A stretch of DNA of 23,407 nt from a virus (IMGVR_UViG_3300029448_000457:1-23407); one strand, 5' to 3'. Numbered from the stretch's first letter, positions 2,191 through 11,141 are shown. The notes: generated by a model not told the origin, from the letters alone. Made by a program: numbers and translations.

Positions 2191-4896
2191 ATGGCATCAA
2201 GTTATACAGATCTCGGTATAGAAAAAATGGCAACTGGCGAAAACGCCGGTACATGGGGAACAAAAACTAATACCAATTTAGATATAATAGAAAAATCAAT
2301 TGCTGGTTATGTTGAACAAGCAGTAACTAGTGGTGGAACAACAGCATTAAGTATTACAGATGGTGATGCAACAGAATCTACATCAGTTGCACGTCATGCT
2401 GTTATAAAATTAACAGGTACAATAACAGGAAACTCTATTGTAACTGTACCTGACTCTGTAGAAAAAGTTTACATTGTAACTAATGGCACATCAGGTGCTT
2501 ACACTGTACAATTTAAAACAGCATCTGGAACAGGTATTACTTTTGGTGTATCAGAAAAAACTACAAGATTAGTTTACTCTGATGGAACAAATCTTGTTGA
2601 TGCAGGATTTGGTGGATCTCTTGACATAGAAGGAAGAGAATTAGTTTTAGATGCTGATGGTGATACAACTATTACAGCAGACACAGATGATCAAATAGAT
2701 ATTAAAATTGCAGGAGCAGATGATTTTCAATTTACTGCAAATACTTTTACAGCACAATCAGGTAGTAGTATTGTTGTGCCAGAAAGCGGACTTACTTTTG
2801 GAAGCACAGCAATTACATCAACAGCCGCAGAATTAAATTTGTTAGATGGAGTATCTGGATTAATACAAGCAGATTTTACTAAACTTGCAGCTGTGGATTC
2901 AACAGCCGCAGAATTAAACATTGTTGATGGTGGTACATCAGCCACATCTACAACAATTGCAGATGCAGACAGAGTTGTATTAAATGATAATGGTACAATG
3001 GTTCAAGTTGCAGTTACAGATTTAGCTGCATACTTTGACGATGAAATTACAGCAATGCCAAACCTTACATCGGTTGGCACACTTACAACTTTAACAGTTG
3101 ATAATGTAATTATTAATGGAACAACTATTGGTCACACTGATGATACAGATTTAATAACTTTAGCCGATGGTATTGCAACAGTTGCAGGTGAAATATCTGT
3201 AACAACTTTAGATATTGGTGGAACTAATGTAACAGCAACCGCAGCAGAGATTAATTTAATAGATGGTGGTGCTTCAACAGGAACAACTGCTGTTGCAGAT
3301 GCAGATGGAATTCTTACAAATGATAGTGGTACAATGAGATTGACAACTGCCGCTACATTTAAAACATATTTTCAAAGTGGTGTTACAGCTTCAAGTGTAG
3401 CAGCAGATGATATTGCAGCAGGTGACGCTGCAGTCACACTTGGTAATGGAAGCACATCAGCAGATGTTACAATAGATTCTGGTGATGATATTGTTATTGA
3501 TGCAGCAGGTGGAAATGTAGAATTTAAAGATGCAGGAACATTACAATTAACATTAGATATGGATGGTACTGCAGGTGCTCAAGTAATTCAACTTGGTGTA
3601 GATAGCGATGATTTAATATTTAAACAATACGATGGAACAACAGTATTAACTTTAGATGATGATACAACAGTTAAGGTTGCAACAGATTTAACAGTTGGTG
3701 ATGATTTAAGTTTAATTTCAGATTCTGCAGTATTAAAATTTGGCGCAGATGGAGATACAACATTAACTCACACAGATGGTACAGGATTAACTTTAAACTC
3801 TACAAACAAATTATGTTTTAATGACGCTACTCAATTTATACAAGGTGCAAGTGGAACAGTATTAGATATCGCTGCTACTGATGAAATAGAATTAACTGCT
3901 ACATTAATTGATGTAGTTGGAAACTTAGCAGGTTCTGGAACTGGTACTTTTGGTGGTATTTTAAAAACAGATGATACTACAGATGCAACGTCTACAACAG
4001 ATGGATCATTACAAACTGACGGTGGTTTAAGTGTAGCCAAAGATACTATAATAGGTAATGACCTTAAATTATTATCTGACTCAGCAGTTCTTGTTTTTGG
4101 TGCAGGTTCTGACGCTACTTTAACACATACTAATGATACTGGATTAACTTTAAACAGCACAAATAAACTTATGTTTAATGATGCTAGTCAATTTATACAA
4201 GGTAGTAGTGGAACAGTATTATCTATAGGTGCAACTGATGAAATAGATTTAACAGCGACTGCAATAGATATTAATGGTACTTGTGATATAAGTGGAACTT
4301 TTTCACTTGCTGGCACTAATGTTACATCAACAGCTACAGAAATAAATAAATTAGATGGAGTTGGAACATTAAAAGAAGCTGGAAAAGAAACTATTTGGAT
4401 TCCTGCAAACGCTATGACACCGACTGAAAGTAATGGATGTGCTTCGGTAACATCAGTAGAAACTACATCAGGAAGACCTGATATGGTTGTTTTAGATTTT
4501 GATAAAGACAGTGATGAGTTTGCACAATTTGCAGTAGCATTTCCTAAGTCATGGAATTTAGGCACGATTACTTTTCAATGTTTTTGGTCTGGTTTAGCGG
4601 CTACTACAGGTGTTGCTATATCCTTAGAAGGTGTTGCAATGAATGATAATGAAACTATTGATGTTGCTTATGGATCAGCTGTAGTTGTTACAGATGATGC
4701 ACAAGGAGCTGTTGAAGAATTATTAGTTACTGCTGAAAGTGGTGCAGTAACAATTGCCGGAACTCCAGCAGATAATGATCTTTGTTATTTTAGAATAGGT
4801 AGAGATGTATCTGATGGTAATGATGATATGGCAGGTGACATGAGATTACATGGTATTAAAATATTTTTTACAACTGATGCAGCTAATGATGCATAG
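2191..4896 (+). CDS. long repeat-containing tail fibre protein
   Basis: A 901-aa protein that probably forms a trimeric fibre for host recognition. The N-terminus (SYTDLGIEKMATGENAGTWG, then NTNLDIIEK) matches the attachment region common in marine phage fibres. A Thr/Asp/Gly/Val-rich shaft follows, with T-A-A-E-L/I-N-x-x-D-G repeats starting near residues 211, 238, 350 and 714. The shaft also has two long copies of one segment at residues about 505-579 and 624-698. The C-terminal 170 residues, from ETIWIPANAM onward, are a non-repetitive beta-rich head, the likely tip or chaperone-like domain. AGGA at 2179-2182 supports the start. The gene is followed by the Gly-rich adhesin, so the pair probably acts together in adsorption. 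Confidence 0.8.
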   Translation: MASSYTDLGIEKMATGENAGTWGTKTNTNLDIIEKSIAGYVEQAVTSGGTTALSITDGDATESTSVARHAVIKLTGTITGNSIVTVPDSVEKVYIVTNGTSGAYTVQFKTASGTGITFGVSEKTTRLVYSDGTNLVDAGFGGSLDIEGRELVLDADGDTTITADTDDQIDIKIAGADDFQFTANTFTAQSGSSIVVPESGLTFGSTAITSTAAELNLLDGVSGLIQADFTKLAAVDSTAAELNIVDGGTSATSTTIADADRVVLNDNGTMVQVAVTDLAAYFDDEITAMPNLTSVGTLTTLTVDNVIINGTTIGHTDDTDLITLADGIATVAGEISVTTLDIGGTNVTATAAEINLIDGGASTGTTAVADADGILTNDSGTMRLTTAATFKTYFQSGVTASSVAADDIAAGDAAVTLGNGSTSADVTIDSGDDIVIDAAGGNVEFKDAGTLQLTLDMDGTAGAQVIQLGVDSDDLIFKQYDGTTVLTLDDDTTVKVATDLTVGDDLSLISDSAVLKFGADGDTTLTHTDGTGLTLNSTNKLCFNDATQFIQGASGTVLDIAATDEIELTATLIDVVGNLAGSGTGTFGGILKTDDTTDATSTTDGSLQTDGGLSVAKDTIIGNDLKLLSDSAVLVFGAGSDATLTHTNDTGLTLNSTNKLMFNDASQFIQGSSGTVLSIGATDEIDLTATAIDINGTCDISGTFSLAGTNVTSTATEINKLDGVGTLKEAGKETIWIPANAMTPTESNGCASVTSVETTSGRPDMVVLDFDKDSDEFAQFAVAFPKSWNLGTITFQCFWSGLAATTGVAISLEGVAMNDNETIDVAYGSAVVVTDDAQGAVEELLVTAESGAVTIAGTPADNDLCYFRIGRDVSDGNDDMAGDMRLHGIKIFFTTDAANDA
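3703..3927 (+). repeat. internal fibre repeat, copy 1 (75 residues)
   Basis: Residues about 505-579 of the fibre, containing SDSAVLKFG, LTHTDGTGLTLNSTNKL and NDATQFIQG. The segment recurs 119 residues later with high amino-acid similarity and clear nucleotide similarity, which suggests a recent intragenic duplication. A 44-residue spacer separates the copies. Confidence 0.85.
4060..4284 (+). repeat. internal fibre repeat, copy 2 (75 residues)
   Basis: Residues about 624-698 of the fibre, containing SDSAVLVFG, LTHTNDTGLTLNSTNKL and NDASQFIQG. It is in frame with copy 1. Differences are mainly third-base changes and conservative replacements. Confidence 0.85.
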
Positions 4897-4908
4897 GGAA
4901 AATAAATT

Positions 4909-5763
4909 ATGTTTGGATATAGAAGTTTAGGTTTTGGTAGTGGAGGAACAGCAGGTGCTGCTCCATATAATATAGATATACTTTTAGTTGCTGGAGGTGG
5001 TGGCGGTGCAAATTGTTGTCACGGCGGTGGCGGCGGAGCTGGAGGATTTAGAAATCTTGCAGATAATGCAATTACACCAGGAGTACAATATACAGTAACT
5101 GTTGGTGATGGTGGATCTGGACAAGCAAAAGGAAGTAATTCTTCGTTTGCAGGAACAGGTTTTACTACGCTTTCTTCAACTGGTGGTGGACCAGGAGGAA
5201 CCAATTCTTCAGTCACTAATGGTGGATCAGGTGGAGGAGGAAGTGCACCTCAAGTAGGTGCAGGAGGAGCAGGAAATGAAGGAGGCTATAGCCCAGCTGA
5301 AGGAACAGCTGGAGGAAATGGTTTTCACGTTGCTCCAGGTTATGGCGGCGGAGGCGGCGGAGGTGCCGGACAAGCTGGTAGTAATGGAGGTGGCCCTGGA
5401 GGGGGTGCTGGAGGAAATGGATCAGCAAATTCAATAACAGGATCATCGGTAACTTACGCTGGAGGTGGCGGAGGGGGTTCTCACCCAGGAGGATCAGGCG
5501 GATCTGGAGGATCCGGAGGTGGTGGAACTGGATCAGTTGGTCCTGGTCAACCAGGAACAGCAAATCTTGGAGGTGGCGGCGGTGGAGCTGAAAGACAGGC
5601 ACCTCAACATAATGGGATAGGAGGATCAGGTGGCAAAGGAGTTGTTATTTTAAAAGTTCCAACTGCAAGTTATACTACTACTGTAACAGGATCACCAACG
5701 GTTACTACAAGTGGAGATTTCAAAATTCTTAAATTTACAGGGACAGGGAGTTATACAGCATAA
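4909..5763 (+). CDS. glycine-rich tail fibre adhesin
   Basis: A 284-aa protein dominated by Gly. A short beta N-terminus (NIDILLVAGGGGG, then YTVTVGDGGSG) leads into a long Gly/Ser tract at about residues 90-235 with GGGGGGGAG, GGGPGGGAGG and HPGGSGGSGGSGGGG. A beta-rich end follows, with GVVILKVP and FKILKFTGTGSYTA. Gly-rich tips of this kind are known as distal receptor-binding proteins in phages, where Gly runs form packed polyglycine-II helices; that comparison is an inference. GC is high only because Gly codons are GGN. The start has AGGGA at 4895-4899, and the stop overlaps the next start (TAATG, 5763). Place in the gene order fits host recognition. Confidence 0.7.
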   Translation: MFGYRSLGFGSGGTAGAAPYNIDILLVAGGGGGANCCHGGGGGAGGFRNLADNAITPGVQYTVTVGDGGSGQAKGSNSSFAGTGFTTLSSTGGGPGGTNSSVTNGGSGGGGSAPQVGAGGAGNEGGYSPAEGTAGGNGFHVAPGYGGGGGGGAGQAGSNGGGPGGGAGGNGSANSITGSSVTYAGGGGGGSHPGGSGGSGGSGGGGTGSVGPGQPGTANLGGGGGGAERQAPQHNGIGGSGGKGVVILKVPTASYTTTVTGSPTVTTSGDFKILKFTGTGSYTA

Positions 5764-6176
5764 TGGCAACTTTTGCAGAATTAAATGATAATAATGTTGT
5801 TTTAAGAACTTTATCCGTTCATGATAATGAATTATTAGATGATGGAAATGAAAGTGAAGATAAAGGAATAGCTTTTTTAAAATCTTTATTTGGCTCAAAT
5901 ACTAATTGGAAACAAACTTCATATAACACTAAGTATGGTGTGTACTATCAAGTTAATTCTAGTACACCACATTCAGATCAATCAAAAGTATTTAGAAGAA
6001 CAAAAGCAGCAGTAGGCGGTGTATACGACCCAGATAGAAATGCTTTTGCAGATCCACAAATTTATGATAGTTGGACCTTAGATCAAAACACAGGTAGATG
6101 GGAACCCCCTACAGCAAGACCAAATGAAACGGGTTATTTTTGGAATGAAAGTCAACAAAAATGGGTACAAAATTAA
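5763..6176 (+). CDS. conserved small protein after tail fibre genes, unknown function
   Basis: A 137-aa acidic protein. Recognisable segments are the start MATFAELNDNNVVLRTLSVHDNE, GIAFLKSLFGSNTNWKQTSYN in the middle, and an aromatic C-terminal part with YDSWTLDQNTGRWEPP and YFWNESQQKW. From memory, a protein of this type is widespread in marine cyanophages and pelagiphages, often close to fibre or structural genes, without an assigned function. The Trp/Asn-rich ending suggests a small beta domain. It is translationally coupled to the Gly-rich adhesin by TAATG. It is the last gene before a 60-base AT-rich gap and the enzyme cassette, so it marks the end of this fibre operon. Confidence 0.6.
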   Translation: MATFAELNDNNVVLRTLSVHDNELLDDGNESEDKGIAFLKSLFGSNTNWKQTSYNTKYGVYYQVNSSTPHSDQSKVFRRTKAAVGGVYDPDRNAFADPQIYDSWTLDQNTGRWEPPTARPNETGYFWNESQQKWVQN

Positions 6177-6236: not shown

Positions 6237-6842
6237 ATGAAAGCTATGATGCCAAGTACTTGTTGGTCGTTCCAAACAGAAACAGTAAATGATTGGGCGT
6301 ATTGGAAAAATTCTTTTACAAAAGAAGAATGTGAAAAAATTATTAAAATTGCTAAATCATATAATTTACAAAAAGCAGGAATTTTAGAAAAAAAAAATAA
6401 ATCAATAATTGAAGAAAAAATAAGAGAAACAAATATAATATTTTTAGTTCCATGTGAAGAAACAGAATTTATATTTAAAAGATTAACTTCATTATTATTA
6501 GAAATGAACAAAAATTTTTTTAATTTTGATTTATGGGGATTACAGGAAGGACTACAATTTACAAACTATGTTGCTCCTAATGGTAAATACGATAAACACA
6601 TGGATAAAACCTCTCTTAAAGGGCTTATAAGAAAATTATCTTTTTCTTTACAATTATCTAATCCAAAAGAATATAAAGGTGGAGATTTTAATTTACATTT
6701 ATCAAGTAAAAAAACAACTTTATTAAAAGAACAAGGAACTTTACTTGTATTTCCAAGTTATGTTTTACATCAAGTAAAAAAAGTTACCAAAGGAGAAAGA
6801 AATTCTTTAGTAGGATGGGTCACTGGCCCTCCTTTTAAATAA
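6237..6842 (+). CDS. 2-oxoglutarate/Fe(II)-dependent oxygenase (PKHD / prolyl-4-hydroxylase-like)
   Basis: A 201-aa soluble enzyme of the double-stranded beta-helix 2OG oxygenase fold. The Fe ligands are visible: H121 and D123 in KYDKHMDK, and H178 in FPSYVLHQV. R188, ten residues after the last His, fits the 2-oxoglutarate carboxylate site. GGDFNLH (148-154) and LLVFPS (169-174) are typical strands. Such enzymes hydroxylate peptide or small-molecule substrates with O2 and 2-oxoglutarate, giving succinate and CO2; the substrate here is unknown. It opens a three-gene cassette, with the halogenase 6 bases downstream. No Shine-Dalgarno sequence is seen. A run of ten A at 6388-6397 is a possible slippage site. 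Start could also be M4 or M5. Confidence 0.8.
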   Translation: MKAMMPSTCWSFQTETVNDWAYWKNSFTKEECEKIIKIAKSYNLQKAGILEKKNKSIIEEKIRETNIIFLVPCEETEFIFKRLTSLLLEMNKNFFNFDLWGLQEGLQFTNYVAPNGKYDKHMDKTSLKGLIRKLSFSLQLSNPKEYKGGDFNLHLSSKKTTLLKEQGTLLVFPSYVLHQVKKVTKGERNSLVGWVTGPPFK

Positions 6843-6848
6843 AATATT

Positions 6849-8387
6849 ATGAAAAATATATTAGTAGTAGGCGGTGGTAGTGCAGGTGTCATGTCTGCTT
6901 ATACACTTAAAAAATTATTTCCTAAAAAAAATGTAACACTTATAGAAAGTAAAAATATACCTACAGTAGGAGTTGGTGAAAGCACTTTAGGTCATATTAA
7001 TCAGTGGCTTGCTTTAGTAGGCATAGTTGAAGATGATTTTATGAAAGAGTGTAATGCTTCTTATAAAATGAGTATTCGGTTTGAAAATTTTTACAGTAAA
7101 AAAGATGGTGGTTTTCATTATCCTTTTGGACAACCTGTTACAGAAGGGAATAAAGCTAAGTTGAACGATTGGTATTTTAAAAAAATATTATATCCTAAAA
7201 CACTTATTTCTAATTACGCTGATATGCATTATCCAATAATGTCTTTAGTAAATAAAAATAAAATATTAACTGATACTCAAAATATAACTGTGGGTTTAGA
7301 AGGATATTCTTTTAAAAAAGATGTAGCTTATCATTTTGATGCAACTTTATTTGCTAATTGGCTAAAGAAAAAATTTATACAAATCGGTGGAAAAATTAAA
7401 ATAGGAAGTATAATTAAAATACATCAAAATAAAAACGGAATAGAAAAAGTTGTAACTGATGCAAAAGAAACTTTAAAGGCAGATTTATTTATAGATTGCA
7501 CTGGTTGGAAATCACTTTTACTAGGTGAAACTTTAAAAGAACCTTTTAAAAGTTATGAAGATATGTTGCCTAATAATTCTGCATGGGCAACTAAGCTACC
7601 TTATACAAATAAAAAAAAACAATTAGTTCCTTATACTAATTGTGAAGCTATTAATAATGGTTGGGTATGGACTATACCTCTTTGGAGTAGAATTGGTACT
7701 GGTTATGTTTATTCAGATAAATACATTTCGGATGAAGATGCTTTAAAAGAATTTAAAAAACATTTAAAAAAAAATGATTTAGAGTTTAAAAAATTAAAAA
7801 TGAGAGTAGGTATTCACGATAAACTTTTTGTTAAAAATGTATGTGCTATTGGAATGTCTGCTGGTTTTATTGAGCCTTTAGAAAGCAATGGTTTATTAAC
7901 TGTGCATGAATTTTTAGTTAAATTAGTTAAAATTTTAAATAGACCGGTAATATCTAATTTTGTTAAACAACAATTTAATATGTCTTGTAAAAGATTTTTT
8001 CACGAATTTGCTGAATTTGTTGCCGCTCATTATGCATTAACCATAAGAAATGATACAAAATATTGGAGAGATATTCAAAATAGAAAATACAATATCGATG
8101 AAAATGTTATTCATGGAAACAGCACTTTTCAATCTATTAATCAATGGTGTTTTAATGATTATCATTATCCAACAACTGCAGGAATGGATTGTATAGGAAC
8201 TGGAATGAGATTTTTTCCTACTGATGAAAATTCATTAAAACATGGTAATTATTCTAGTGATATTAATTTTTTAAAAAGTGATGCACAAGAAAGAACACTT
8301 CAACTAGATATAAGAGAACAAGAATGGAAAGATAAAGTTTCTGTTTGTCCTTCATTGTATGAATTTTTGAAAAAAAAATATATTTAA
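6849..8387 (+). CDS. FAD-dependent tryptophan-halogenase-family enzyme
   Basis: A 512-aa flavoprotein of the tryptophan halogenase family, close to the usual length of about 510-540 aa. The FAD-binding G-x-G-x-x-G is GGGSAG at residues 8-13, and VGVGEST follows near residue 41. K73 in SYKMSIRF aligns with the catalytic lysine (PrnA K79) that carries the hypohalous species. The diagnostic W-x-W-x-I-P is WVWTIP at 272-277. FIEPLESNGL (340-349) places E345 and S346 at the PrnA E346/S347 positions. It therefore appears catalytically complete and would need reduced FAD from a separate reductase, which is not in this window. Viral members are known; VirX1 from cyanophage Syn10 is an active halogenase favouring iodide. 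The substrate cannot be read from sequence. The neighbours are two 2OG oxygenases. Confidence 0.9.
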   Translation: MKNILVVGGGSAGVMSAYTLKKLFPKKNVTLIESKNIPTVGVGESTLGHINQWLALVGIVEDDFMKECNASYKMSIRFENFYSKKDGGFHYPFGQPVTEGNKAKLNDWYFKKILYPKTLISNYADMHYPIMSLVNKNKILTDTQNITVGLEGYSFKKDVAYHFDATLFANWLKKKFIQIGGKIKIGSIIKIHQNKNGIEKVVTDAKETLKADLFIDCTGWKSLLLGETLKEPFKSYEDMLPNNSAWATKLPYTNKKKQLVPYTNCEAINNGWVWTIPLWSRIGTGYVYSDKYISDEDALKEFKKHLKKNDLEFKKLKMRVGIHDKLFVKNVCAIGMSAGFIEPLESNGLLTVHEFLVKLVKILNRPVISNFVKQQFNMSCKRFFHEFAEFVAAHYALTIRNDTKYWRDIQNRKYNIDENVIHGNSTFQSINQWCFNDYHYPTTAGMDCIGTGMRFFPTDENSLKHGNYSSDINFLKSDAQERTLQLDIREQEWKDKVSVCPSLYEFLKKKYI

Positions 8388-8950
8388 TGAAAGTAATGGA
8401 TGTATTTACTATTGGTGTAGGGTCTTCTTCTTTTAATGAAAATTTAAAAGAATTACAAAAGTATTCTTATAAATTAAAAAAGAAATCTAAAGGTAGGATA
8501 GTTAGTAATCAAGGTGGTTGGCAAAGTGTTGATATAACAGAAATTAGTAAAGAAACTACTTCTTTAATGTTAAAGATTAATGAAGCAGTTCAAGAATATA
8601 GTGAACTTTTCAAATTTAAAAAACGAGTACAGCTTTCTAATATGTGGATAAATATTAATTCATATAGGGATTCAAATATTATTCATACTCACCCAGGTTG
8701 TTTAATATCTGGGGTTTATTATATTAAAACTTCAAAAAAATGCGGAGAAATAAAATTTAAAAGGTCTTTTTATATTGACTATCATTTAACGCAAGGCAGT
8801 GTTAAGGAATTTAATTCGTTAAATGCTTCTTACTGGACCCTTCCTGCTATTGAAAACACATTATATTTATTTCCATCTTGGATAGAGCACCTAGTTACTC
8901 CTAATTATAGTAAAAAAGACAGAATATCTTTATCTTTTAATTATCTTTAA
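8387..8950 (+). CDS. putative 2OG-Fe(II) oxygenase of the TIGR02466 / 2OG-FeII_Oxy_5 type
   Basis: A 187-aa protein with hallmarks of a second, different 2OG oxygenase family. NQGGWQS lies near residues 41-47, H100-T-H102-P precedes SGVYYI at 108-113, and LYLFPSWIEHLV (159-170) contains H168, with R179 eleven residues later in RISLSFN. The canonical H-x-D pair is not obvious, because the first metal-site motif reads H-T-H-P. H100 and/or H102 with H168 are the probable Fe ligands and R179 the probable 2-oxoglutarate ligand. It overlaps the halogenase stop as TAATG, so the two are co-translated and probably act in one pathway or on one target. M4 is an alternative start. The substrate is unknown. 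Confidence 0.7.
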   Translation: MKVMDVFTIGVGSSSFNENLKELQKYSYKLKKKSKGRIVSNQGGWQSVDITEISKETTSLMLKINEAVQEYSELFKFKKRVQLSNMWININSYRDSNIIHTHPGCLISGVYYIKTSKKCGEIKFKRSFYIDYHLTQGSVKEFNSLNASYWTLPAIENTLYLFPSWIEHLVTPNYSKKDRISLSFNYL

Positions 8951-8984: not shown

Positions 8985-11141
8985 ATGCTACAAAAAGTAA
9001 AATTTTCACCAGGATTTAATAAACAAGTTACATCTACTGGCGGCGAGAGTCAGTGGGTTGCAGGAGACAATGTTAGATTTAGATATGGTAGTCCTGAAAA
9101 AATAGGTGGATGGTCTCAATTAGGTTCGGTTGATATTACAGGACGTAATACAGCTATTCATCATTTTGTTAATGCTTCAGGTATTAAGTATGCAGCGTTG
9201 GGTACAAATAGAATTTTATACGTTTATTCGGGTGGTATCTTTTATGATATACATCCAATTAAAGCGACAACAACTTTAACATCAGCTTTTTCTACAACTA
9301 ATGGATCAGCTGTTGTAACATTAACTTTTTCATCTGCTCATAATATAAATAAATTTGATATTATATTACTAGATAACTTTAGCTCTATTACAAATTCTAA
9401 TTTTAATTCTCAAAATTTTGATAACAACAAATTTATGGTAACAACTGTACCATCAACTACAACATTAACTATTAATGTTGGTTCAAGCGAATCAGGATCA
9501 GGTGCCTCAACATCTGGCGGTATTCGTGTCAAACATTATTATCCGGTCGGACCAGCAACTGAAGTTGCATCAACAGGTTGGGGACTTGGACCTTGGGGTG
9601 GTTTTAAAACAGGACAATTTACATCGACTCTTTCATCTTCAATTAATACATCAGTTACAACATTAAGTATGGCAAGTTCAACTTCTTTTCCTTCTTCAGG
9701 AACTGTATTAATTAATAATGAATTAATTACGTACACAGGCAATAGTAGTAATAGTTTAACAGGACTAACTAGAGGAGCAAACGGTACAACTGCAGCGTCA
9801 CACTCAAGTGGTGATACAGTAACCGATGCATCAGAATTTTTTGCATGGAATGCTGCAGCGTCAGGAGACGTTGTAACAGCACCTGGTTTATGGTCATTAG
9901 ATAATTTTGGTAATAAACTTATTGCGACTATATTTGGTGGAGAAACATTTGAATGGGATTCTGATCCAGTGGGTGGAACAAGTACAAGAGCAAATATACT
10001 TGCTAACGCTCCAACTGCATCATCTTTTAGTTTAGTATCTACTCCAGATAGACACTTAATATTTTTTGGAACAGAAACAACTATTGGTACATCAAGCACA
10101 AGAGATGAAATGTATATTAGGTTCTCGGACCAAGAATCTATTAATGAAGCAACATCTTATGCGCCATCAGCTACTAATACAGCAGGTACACAAAGACTTG
10201 CAGATGGATCAAAGATTGTAGGAGCTTTAAGAGGTAGAGATGCAATTTACGTTTGGACTGATACAGCATTATTTATTATGCGTTTTGTAGGAAGTCCTTT
10301 TACATTTTCATTTCAACAAGTTGGAACTAACTGTGGATTGATTGGTAAGAATGCTTGCGTTGAAGTTGATGGTGCTGCATATTGGATGTCAGAAAATGGT
10401 TTCTTTAGATATACTGGTAAGCTAGAATCTCTTCCATGTTTAGTTGAAGACCATGTTTATGATGATATTAATACAATTCCTAAACAACATATCAATGCAG
10501 GACTTAATAACTTGTTTGGTGAAGTTATGTGGTTTTATCCTAACTCAGGATCAGGCACAGTTAACAGAGTTGTAACTTATAATTATCTAGACTCTACTCC
10601 AGAAAGACCAGTGTGGACTGTTGGCACATTAGCAAGAACTGCGTGGCAGGATTCTGCTGTGTTTGGTAAACCGCATGCAACAGAATATGATTCTGATGGT
10701 ACAACTGCTACAACAGATACTAATTATATTTATGGAAACACTGATGGTACATCAACATACTTTGAACACGAAACAGGATTGAACCAAGTTAAAGAAGGTG
10801 CAACGACTGCAATTACAGCATCGATTGAATCTGGAGATTTTGATATTGGTCAACAAGGACTTGCTGGTGATGGTGAATTTATGATGAAAATAAGAAGAGT
10901 AATACCTGACTTTTTATCACAAACAGGAGACGCTAGAATAACATTAAATTTAAGAGATTTTCCTAATGACACATCTGCTAGTTCAACGCTTGGTCCTTTT
11001 ACGGTCACATCAGGTACACAAAAAATTGACACACGTGCTAGAGCAAGATCAATATCATTAAAGATAGATAACACAAGTACAAGTCAATTTTGGAAACTTG
11101 GTACTTTTAGATTAGATATACAACCAGACGGGAGAAGATAA
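8985..11141 (+). CDS. large tail nozzle / packaged-DNA stabilisation-like protein
   Basis: A 718-aa, mostly beta protein. The N-terminus (QKVKFSPGFNKQVTSTGGES, then WVAGDNVRFRYGSPEKIGGW) is the type seen in P22 gp10-like and tail-tubular-B-like proteins of marine podoviruses, which close the tail nozzle. P22 gp10 has 472 aa, and the extra length here is partly two Ser/Thr-rich insertions. One lies at about 95-180 (FSTTNGSAVVTLTFSSAHN). The other, about 215-290 (TSFPSSGTVLINNELITYTG, then TGLTRGANGTTAASHSSG), is a small beta module that also recurs in marine phage tail proteins. The C-terminus ends in LGTFRLDIQPDGRR. It starts without a Shine-Dalgarno sequence, 34 bases after the enzyme cassette. 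Confidence 0.65.
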   Translation: MLQKVKFSPGFNKQVTSTGGESQWVAGDNVRFRYGSPEKIGGWSQLGSVDITGRNTAIHHFVNASGIKYAALGTNRILYVYSGGIFYDIHPIKATTTLTSAFSTTNGSAVVTLTFSSAHNINKFDIILLDNFSSITNSNFNSQNFDNNKFMVTTVPSTTTLTINVGSSESGSGASTSGGIRVKHYYPVGPATEVASTGWGLGPWGGFKTGQFTSTLSSSINTSVTTLSMASSTSFPSSGTVLINNELITYTGNSSNSLTGLTRGANGTTAASHSSGDTVTDASEFFAWNAAASGDVVTAPGLWSLDNFGNKLIATIFGGETFEWDSDPVGGTSTRANILANAPTASSFSLVSTPDRHLIFFGTETTIGTSSTRDEMYIRFSDQESINEATSYAPSATNTAGTQRLADGSKIVGALRGRDAIYVWTDTALFIMRFVGSPFTFSFQQVGTNCGLIGKNACVEVDGAAYWMSENGFFRYTGKLESLPCLVEDHVYDDINTIPKQHINAGLNNLFGEVMWFYPNSGSGTVNRVVTYNYLDSTPERPVWTVGTLARTAWQDSAVFGKPHATEYDSDGTTATTDTNYIYGNTDGTSTYFEHETGLNQVKEGATTAITASIESGDFDIGQQGLAGDGEFMMKIRRVIPDFLSQTGDARITLNLRDFPNDTSASSTLGPFTVTSGTQKIDTRARARSISLKIDNTSTSQFWKLGTFRLDIQPDGRR

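Follow-up and report, generated by a model that had tools for sequence, protein, structure and literature searches.

The virus contig fragment IMGVR_UViG_3300029448_000457 (23,407 nt; hereafter the window) carries, inside a phage tail locus, a predicted flavin-dependent halogenase gene flanked by genes for two unlike 2-oxoglutarate (2OG)-Fe(II) oxygenases, which we call oxygenases A and B. Oxygenase A is encoded at positions 6237 to 6842, the halogenase at 6849 to 8387 and oxygenase B at 8387 to 8950, all on the plus strand. A preliminary description had placed three consecutive oxidative enzymes between the fibre genes and the nozzle gene. Its coordinates for the three genes are exact, and both junctions are as it gave them: a gap of 6 bases separates the oxygenase A and halogenase genes, and the halogenase and oxygenase B genes overlap by one base (TAATG).

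The flanking structural genes lie on the same strand. The module starts with a tail fibre-like protein (2191 to 4896, plus strand; phrog_31104 by phrog profile). Next come two genes that the preliminary description, otherwise right about the tail locus, had not named: a glycine-rich adhesin (4909 to 5763, plus strand; PF21722 Gly_rich_2, 1.3e-18) and a small Trp/Tyr/Pro-rich protein (5763 to 6176, plus strand; phrog_7759, 5.8e-33). Downstream of oxygenase B, a nozzle-like virion protein (8985 to 11141, plus strand; phrog_3287 by phrog profile) marks the cassette boundary. This nozzle is 45-49% identical to those of 023Pt_psg01 and the Pelagibacter phages HTVC027P and HTVC023P, and we therefore identify the window as a fragment of an HTVC023P-type podovirus. 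It is through these relatives alone that a SAR11 host is suggested. A promoter and terminator scan gave signal no better than chance, and a DNA search of named phages with a 3.2-kb stretch returned, among the matches listed, only pieces of the halogenase gene at about 67-70% identity.

The halogenase and the two oxygenases

Motifs, profile and predicted fold assign the halogenase to the PrnA/VirX1 type of flavin-dependent halogenases. It matches PF04820 (E=1.3e-101, 341 bits; cut-off 21) and phrog_2928 (1.5e-145), and its best solved relative is VirX1 of cyanophage Syn10 (PDB 6qgm; 2.3e-95), which has the same Lys, Glu and flavin adenine dinucleotide (FAD) motifs. The GGGSAG FAD motif (G8-G13), the catalytic residues K73 (7065-7067) and E345 (7881-7883) and W272-V-W274-T-I-P277 are all present, as had been noted, and K73, E345, W272 and P277 are invariant across 62 phage halogenases. 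A structural comparison used a model with a predicted local distance difference test (pLDDT) score of 93.6; its best Foldseek match is VirX1, at a template modelling (TM) score of 0.92, and it superposes on VirX1 with a root mean square deviation (rmsd) of 2.0 Å over 504 residues (VIA-align). Identity to VirX1 is 35-36%. In free-tryptophan halogenases (PrnA, RebH) the C-terminal part positions the amino acid substrate. Local phmmer alignments to Trp halogenases stop near residue 407-414 and leave the last ~100 residues unaligned; nonetheless, the folds superpose along the whole length. MibH, a lanthipeptide tryptophan 5-halogenase (5uao), has the same fold (Z 38.7) and shows that a peptide can be the substrate of a flavin halogenase. 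It differs in being a bacterial enzyme of ribosomally synthesized and post-translationally modified peptide (RiPP) biosynthesis, 26% identical over the structural alignment, and we know of no 2OG or adhesin context for it.

A search of 12 related records for a flavin reductase of family PF01613 gave none, so reduced FAD (FADH2) would have to be supplied by the host, as first proposed. An alignment scan of viral contigs found at least 599 relatives of the halogenase, which rules out a rare stray gene. Two further features accompany such halogenases. A protein of ~250 aa, Trp/Pro-rich (phrog_7084), is repeatedly found beside them, including VirX1 (eight loci, among them L040:9517-10302), and unlike halogenases stand in tandem within one cassette in Syn10, S-RIM44, P-RSM6, P-TIM40 and two contig loci.

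Both neighbours of the halogenase are assigned as 2OG-Fe(II) oxygenases and are predicted to be hydroxylases. Oxygenase A matches phrog_61 (6e-32) and the PKHD-type Fe2+ dioxygenase model NF003974 (4e-20, which is under that model's curated cut-off), and has PKHD-type relatives in the PDB at E 1.6e-6. Its facial triad (H121-x-D123 and H178) and 2OG-binding R188 are present, and H121 and H178 are invariant in 238 relatives. Oxygenase B, a phrog_81 protein, matches PF13759 (1.9e-21, 76.7 bits; cut-off 27) and TIGR02466 (2.4e-28, 99.3 bits, above the cut-off of 62.5). Its ligands H100-x-H102 and H168 and its R179 are in place, and H100 and H168 are invariant in 347 relatives. Both ligand sets had been read correctly from the start, and all three enzymes appear catalytically intact. 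Because 62% of those relatives have His at the middle ligand position and 38% have Asp, the metal site of oxygenase B may be unusual and its metal chemistry is uncertain. SyrB2-type radical halogenases have Gly or Ala at the corresponding triad position. The oxygenases have Asp (A) or His (B) there, and a radical-halogenase role for them finds no support. Many cassettes also encode a protein family with a weak phrog_81 match (0.0019; for example L016:995-1534), whose C-terminal part, by eye, resembles a 2OG fold without metal ligands; it is perhaps a pseudo-oxygenase.

The module in other phages

How constant is this arrangement? Scans of viral contigs yielded 118 halogenase loci, or 67 after dereplication at 90%. 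A module recurs in podoviruses in the order fibre, glycine-rich adhesin (PF21722), phrog_7759 protein, several 2OG oxygenases, halogenase, further oxygenases and nozzle. In podoviruses, 36 dereplicated halogenase loci extend to the nozzle, and every one has 2OG genes within 8 kb (mean 5.1). A glycine-rich protein or phrog_7759 protein is present in 30 of the 36, and since the remaining six reach the contig edge before the fibre side, the count is 30/30 where the region is visible. This compares with 19/34 nozzle loci that have 2OG genes only (Fisher p=1.3e-5) and 2/8 nozzle loci without any 2OG gene. Glycine-rich genes were called by composition (at least 22% Gly and at least 120 aa), with PF21722 confirmed on a subset. 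Divergent halogenases occupy the same cassette type in three loci, and as an extra copy in a fourth. The stable partner of the halogenase is the glycine-rich adhesin with its phrog_7759 neighbour, not the two oxygenases.

The preliminary description had seen in the three enzymes a complete small tailoring pathway rather than a stray gene. The linkage to tail genes in many phages bears out the second half of that statement, but the joint three-gene pathway does not survive, because the oxygenases shuffle independently of the halogenase. The same three-gene order is not kept in related loci: each podovirus halogenase is accompanied by about five 2OG genes of shuffled identity on average (range 1-10), which belong to several families and change in order and strand from locus to locus. 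Halogenases that share 60-67% identity with that of the window adjoin quite different oxygenases. Conversely, most of the nearest relatives of oxygenase A (46-48%) come from cassettes in which no halogenase is visible (three loci; a fourth has one), and the best two relatives of oxygenase B (42-43%) both come from loci that lack one in view. At the corresponding site, HTVC027P, HTVC023P and 023Pt_psg01 each carry a 2OG cluster but no annotated halogenase. We therefore reject a fixed, co-evolving trio.

Such shuffling is also what would be expected if a recombination hot spot beside host-range genes simply gathered unrelated oxidative enzymes, their co-location having no functional meaning. The gene content of the site is indeed very plastic: in other relatives, phrog_14820 arrays or LamG/SPRY proteins occupy it. 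However, the recurring set is not random. It consists of 2OG genes and a halogenase, sometimes with a carbamoyl- or sulfotransferase, beside the same type of adhesin; it is found in T4-like myoviruses as well as in podoviruses, and halogenase lineages unrelated to one another have ended up at the same place. We therefore consider hitch-hiking cargo quite improbable.

The transferases deserve a separate mention. Carbamoyltransferases (PF16861/PF02543, tested in L019) and one sulfotransferase (PF00685) lie inside such cassettes, in twelve loci and at L016:6463-7290. As these enzymes act on hydroxyls, further decoration of hydroxyl groups is suggested.

In T4-like myoviruses the neighbourhood is similar. 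Two PF21722 proteins flank a 2OG-2OG-halogenase-2OG-2OG run in Sf-CH11-type cyanophages. In Syn10 the succession is PF21722 proteins, then a phrog_1787 protein, a pair of halogenases of which VirX1 is the second, a phrog_7084 protein and a run of 2OG genes. VirX1 thus resembles the window halogenase in having glycine-rich adhesins upstream and 2OG genes downstream. It differs in that its phage is a T4-like myovirus and that phrog_7084 and a further halogenase, in tandem, adjoin it, whereas the window is podoviral with a single halogenase. The layout is common to S-RIM44, S-WAM1, S-SZBM1, P-RSM6, P-TIM40, S-CREM1 and Sf-FR1. Across 14 genomes, a PF21722 gene lies within 5 kb (about 0.6-1.7 kb away) of 9 of 18 halogenase clusters, against a mean of 1.5 under random placement (p=5e-5) and 3.1 under placement within 25 kb (p=7e-4). 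Within 8 kb of the isolate halogenase clusters of these 14 genomes there are 48 2OG genes, where 20.5 are expected.

If the target is on the virion or cell surface, the adhesin is not the only candidate. The fibre, the phrog_7759 protein, the nozzle or a host surface receptor could be modified instead, the last for example in superinfection exclusion. The phrog_7759 protein is rich in Trp and Tyr (about 4.6% W) and is linked as constantly as the adhesin. Among dereplicated nozzle loci its association with 2OG genes (21/38 vs 0/8, p=0.005) is at least as strong as that of the glycine-rich protein, for which the plain 2OG association is weak (p=0.13). On the other hand, its Trp and Tyr are not enriched in halogenase loci, and the VirX1 locus keeps PF21722 while its small protein belongs to another family, phrog_1787. 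We judge these other surface targets unlikely.

The glycine-rich adhesin

The glycine-rich protein of the window is predicted with high confidence to fold as a polyglycine-type adhesin domain, which would bind a receptor at the fibre tip. It scores 68 bits against PF21722 (cut-off 24.3), and its AlphaFold2 model is well defined (pLDDT 92, predicted TM score 0.89). The best solved matches of the model are the Bxb1 tail tip (9d93; Z 13.3, rmsd 3.2, 176 residues) and the fibre of cyanophage Pam3 (Z 12.0, rmsd 2.9, 165 residues); glycine-rich domains of ALK and LTK come next, with Z about 5. S16 gp38 is not among the listed solved-structure matches, which decides nothing either way. In the described domain of Pam3 gp24, a polyglycine lattice carries variable loops that form the receptor-binding part (PMC9608196), and S16 and PP01 gp38 are built in the same way (PMC12892980). 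In PP01 gp38, mutating the loop residue Tyr209 abolishes infectivity, and receptor-loop tyrosines matter for adsorption (PMC12892980). With these proteins and the Bxb1 tail tip the window adhesin shares a conserved glycine core and variable loops; the parts of the two sources that treat these systems describe no modifying enzymes (PMC12892980, PMC9608196).

In the window adhesin, 4/4 His and 7/8 Tyr are in variable or gap-rich alignment columns, and the glycine core is conserved. His makes up 1.1% of adhesins in halogenase loci vs 0.53% in complete loci with 2OG genes only (p from 1e-5 to 8e-4 under stricter dereplication), and it is higher in the halogenase-linked adhesin in 28 of 35 nearest pairs (p=1.3e-4). 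GHG tripeptides number 25 in 49 adhesins from halogenase loci and 3 in the 37 others, and Tyr is slightly higher in halogenase-linked adhesins. In the same loci, the nozzle and phrog_81 proteins have no clear His difference, and phrog_7759 and phrog_61 lean the same way (p about 0.05). Because the His enrichment was found post hoc among many residues, it is an exploratory lead towards imidazole or phenol halogenation and not evidence of it.

Proposed modification of the adhesin and competing explanations

Starting from the observed module, we propose that the enzymes of the cassette modify the co-encoded adhesin while virions are assembled, hydroxylating and halogenating its aromatic or histidine residues with FADH2 from the host, and we assign this reading a probability of about 0.5. 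We infer the adhesin as substrate because the neighbourhood is constant in two phage morphotypes, because divergent halogenase lineages and hydroxyl-directed transferases share the cassette, and because MibH acts on a peptide. The adhesin and phrog_7759 genes stand in one gene block, on the same strand, with the fibre and nozzle genes, and would presumably be co-expressed with them. The 2OG oxygenases would hydroxylate adhesin side chains or prime them for further decoration. The VirX1-like halogenase would use host FADH2, O2 and seawater halide to form hypohalous acid, relayed through K73, and exposed Tyr, His or Trp in the hypervariable loops of the adhesin would be halogenated. The altered loop chemistry may in turn change receptor binding or virion stability, adding diversity beyond the 20 amino acids. 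Individual enzymes would be swapped between cassettes by recombination, and the decoration pattern would then differ between phages.

Viral halogenases and cyanophage 2OG oxygenases have been classed otherwise, the reviews in their relevant passages treating both as auxiliary metabolic genes. The cassette would then modify a metabolite of the host or of infection, such as free tryptophan or indole or a signalling or antimicrobial compound, or would change 2-oxoglutarate levels. The halogenase does belong to the tryptophan-halogenase fold family. VirX1, described as iodination-preferring, takes many small aromatics in vitro, and the review passage on it gives no natural substrate (PMC8407142). 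An effect on 2OG/NtcA signalling has been proposed for cyanophage 2OG genes (PMC3037559), and an alteration of host metabolites for phage halogenation (PMC10452541). In HTVC023P-type pelagiphages, which are of the same phage type as the window and carry several unlike 2OG genes at the same pre-nozzle site, 2OG genes and 'ferrochelatases' co-locate and are treated as auxiliary metabolic genes (PMC9599517). A search of that text turned up no halogenase, the relevant passages make no link to a glycine-rich adhesin, and none is annotated at the site in the HTVC023P-type isolates that we looked at for a halogenase. By contrast, what the conserved neighbourhood suggests is a virion protein. Among the loci mapped, the halogenase has no recurring companion that is a transporter, regulator, peptide synthetase or other pathway gene; the genes constantly near it encode virion proteins, and it comes with several unlike 2OG enzymes. 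We therefore regard a metabolic role as fairly unlikely, and of the two targets left open by the preliminary description, a host metabolite or a virion or surface protein, place and recurrent neighbour favour the virion.

Several points weigh against modification of the adhesin. The adhesin is chosen as substrate wholly from association, and, since adhesin genes are hot spots of recombination, cargo could accumulate beside them without acting on their products. The loci and cyanophage genomes share ancestry, and the p-values given here consequently overstate independence. Two glycine-rich neighbours have no PF21722 match, and the low-complexity sequence of the adhesin makes homology calls less certain. 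2OG clusters also accompany other fibre types (HTVC027P-like). An adhesin neighbour is absent from the halogenases of S-B64, P-SSM2 and a Campylobacter phage, from the second halogenases of S-RIM44 and P-TIM40, and from a T4-like halogenase clade linked to a large PolB-sized gene (for example L021, L168 and L190). Finally, other residues shift in halogenase-linked adhesins as well, with Cys and Asn down and GFG up, and Trp is not enriched in the adhesins of halogenase loci.

More broadly, and tentatively, marine phages may halogenate and hydroxylate their own receptor-binding adhesins post-translationally by means of co-encoded, recombining cassettes, a generation of chemical rather than sequence diversity. 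If so, VirX1-type viral halogenases would gain a native substrate, the chemistry of receptor binding would extend past what the genetic code offers, and predictions of host range made only from sequence would be incomplete for such phages. Phages with this neighbourhood include the cultured isolates Syn10, S-RIM44, S-CREM1 and HTVC008M.

The PolB-linked clade has its own setting. In nine loci the halogenase directly follows an ~850-aa gene resembling a T4-like DNA polymerase, UvsX- and helicase-sized genes come next, and no glycine-rich partner is nearby. Given these neighbours, a different role for this clade is likely.

The site upstream of the podovirus nozzle also holds other gene sets. 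Six loci without a 2OG/halogenase cassette carry an alternative fibre module there, made of tandem arrays of ~200-aa proteins (one tested: phrog_14820) and a tail-fibre-assembly-like protein of 95 aa. Six further loci carry another alternative module, formed by a LamG and SPRY protein of ~478 aa (tested in L085) and a protein of ~350 aa.

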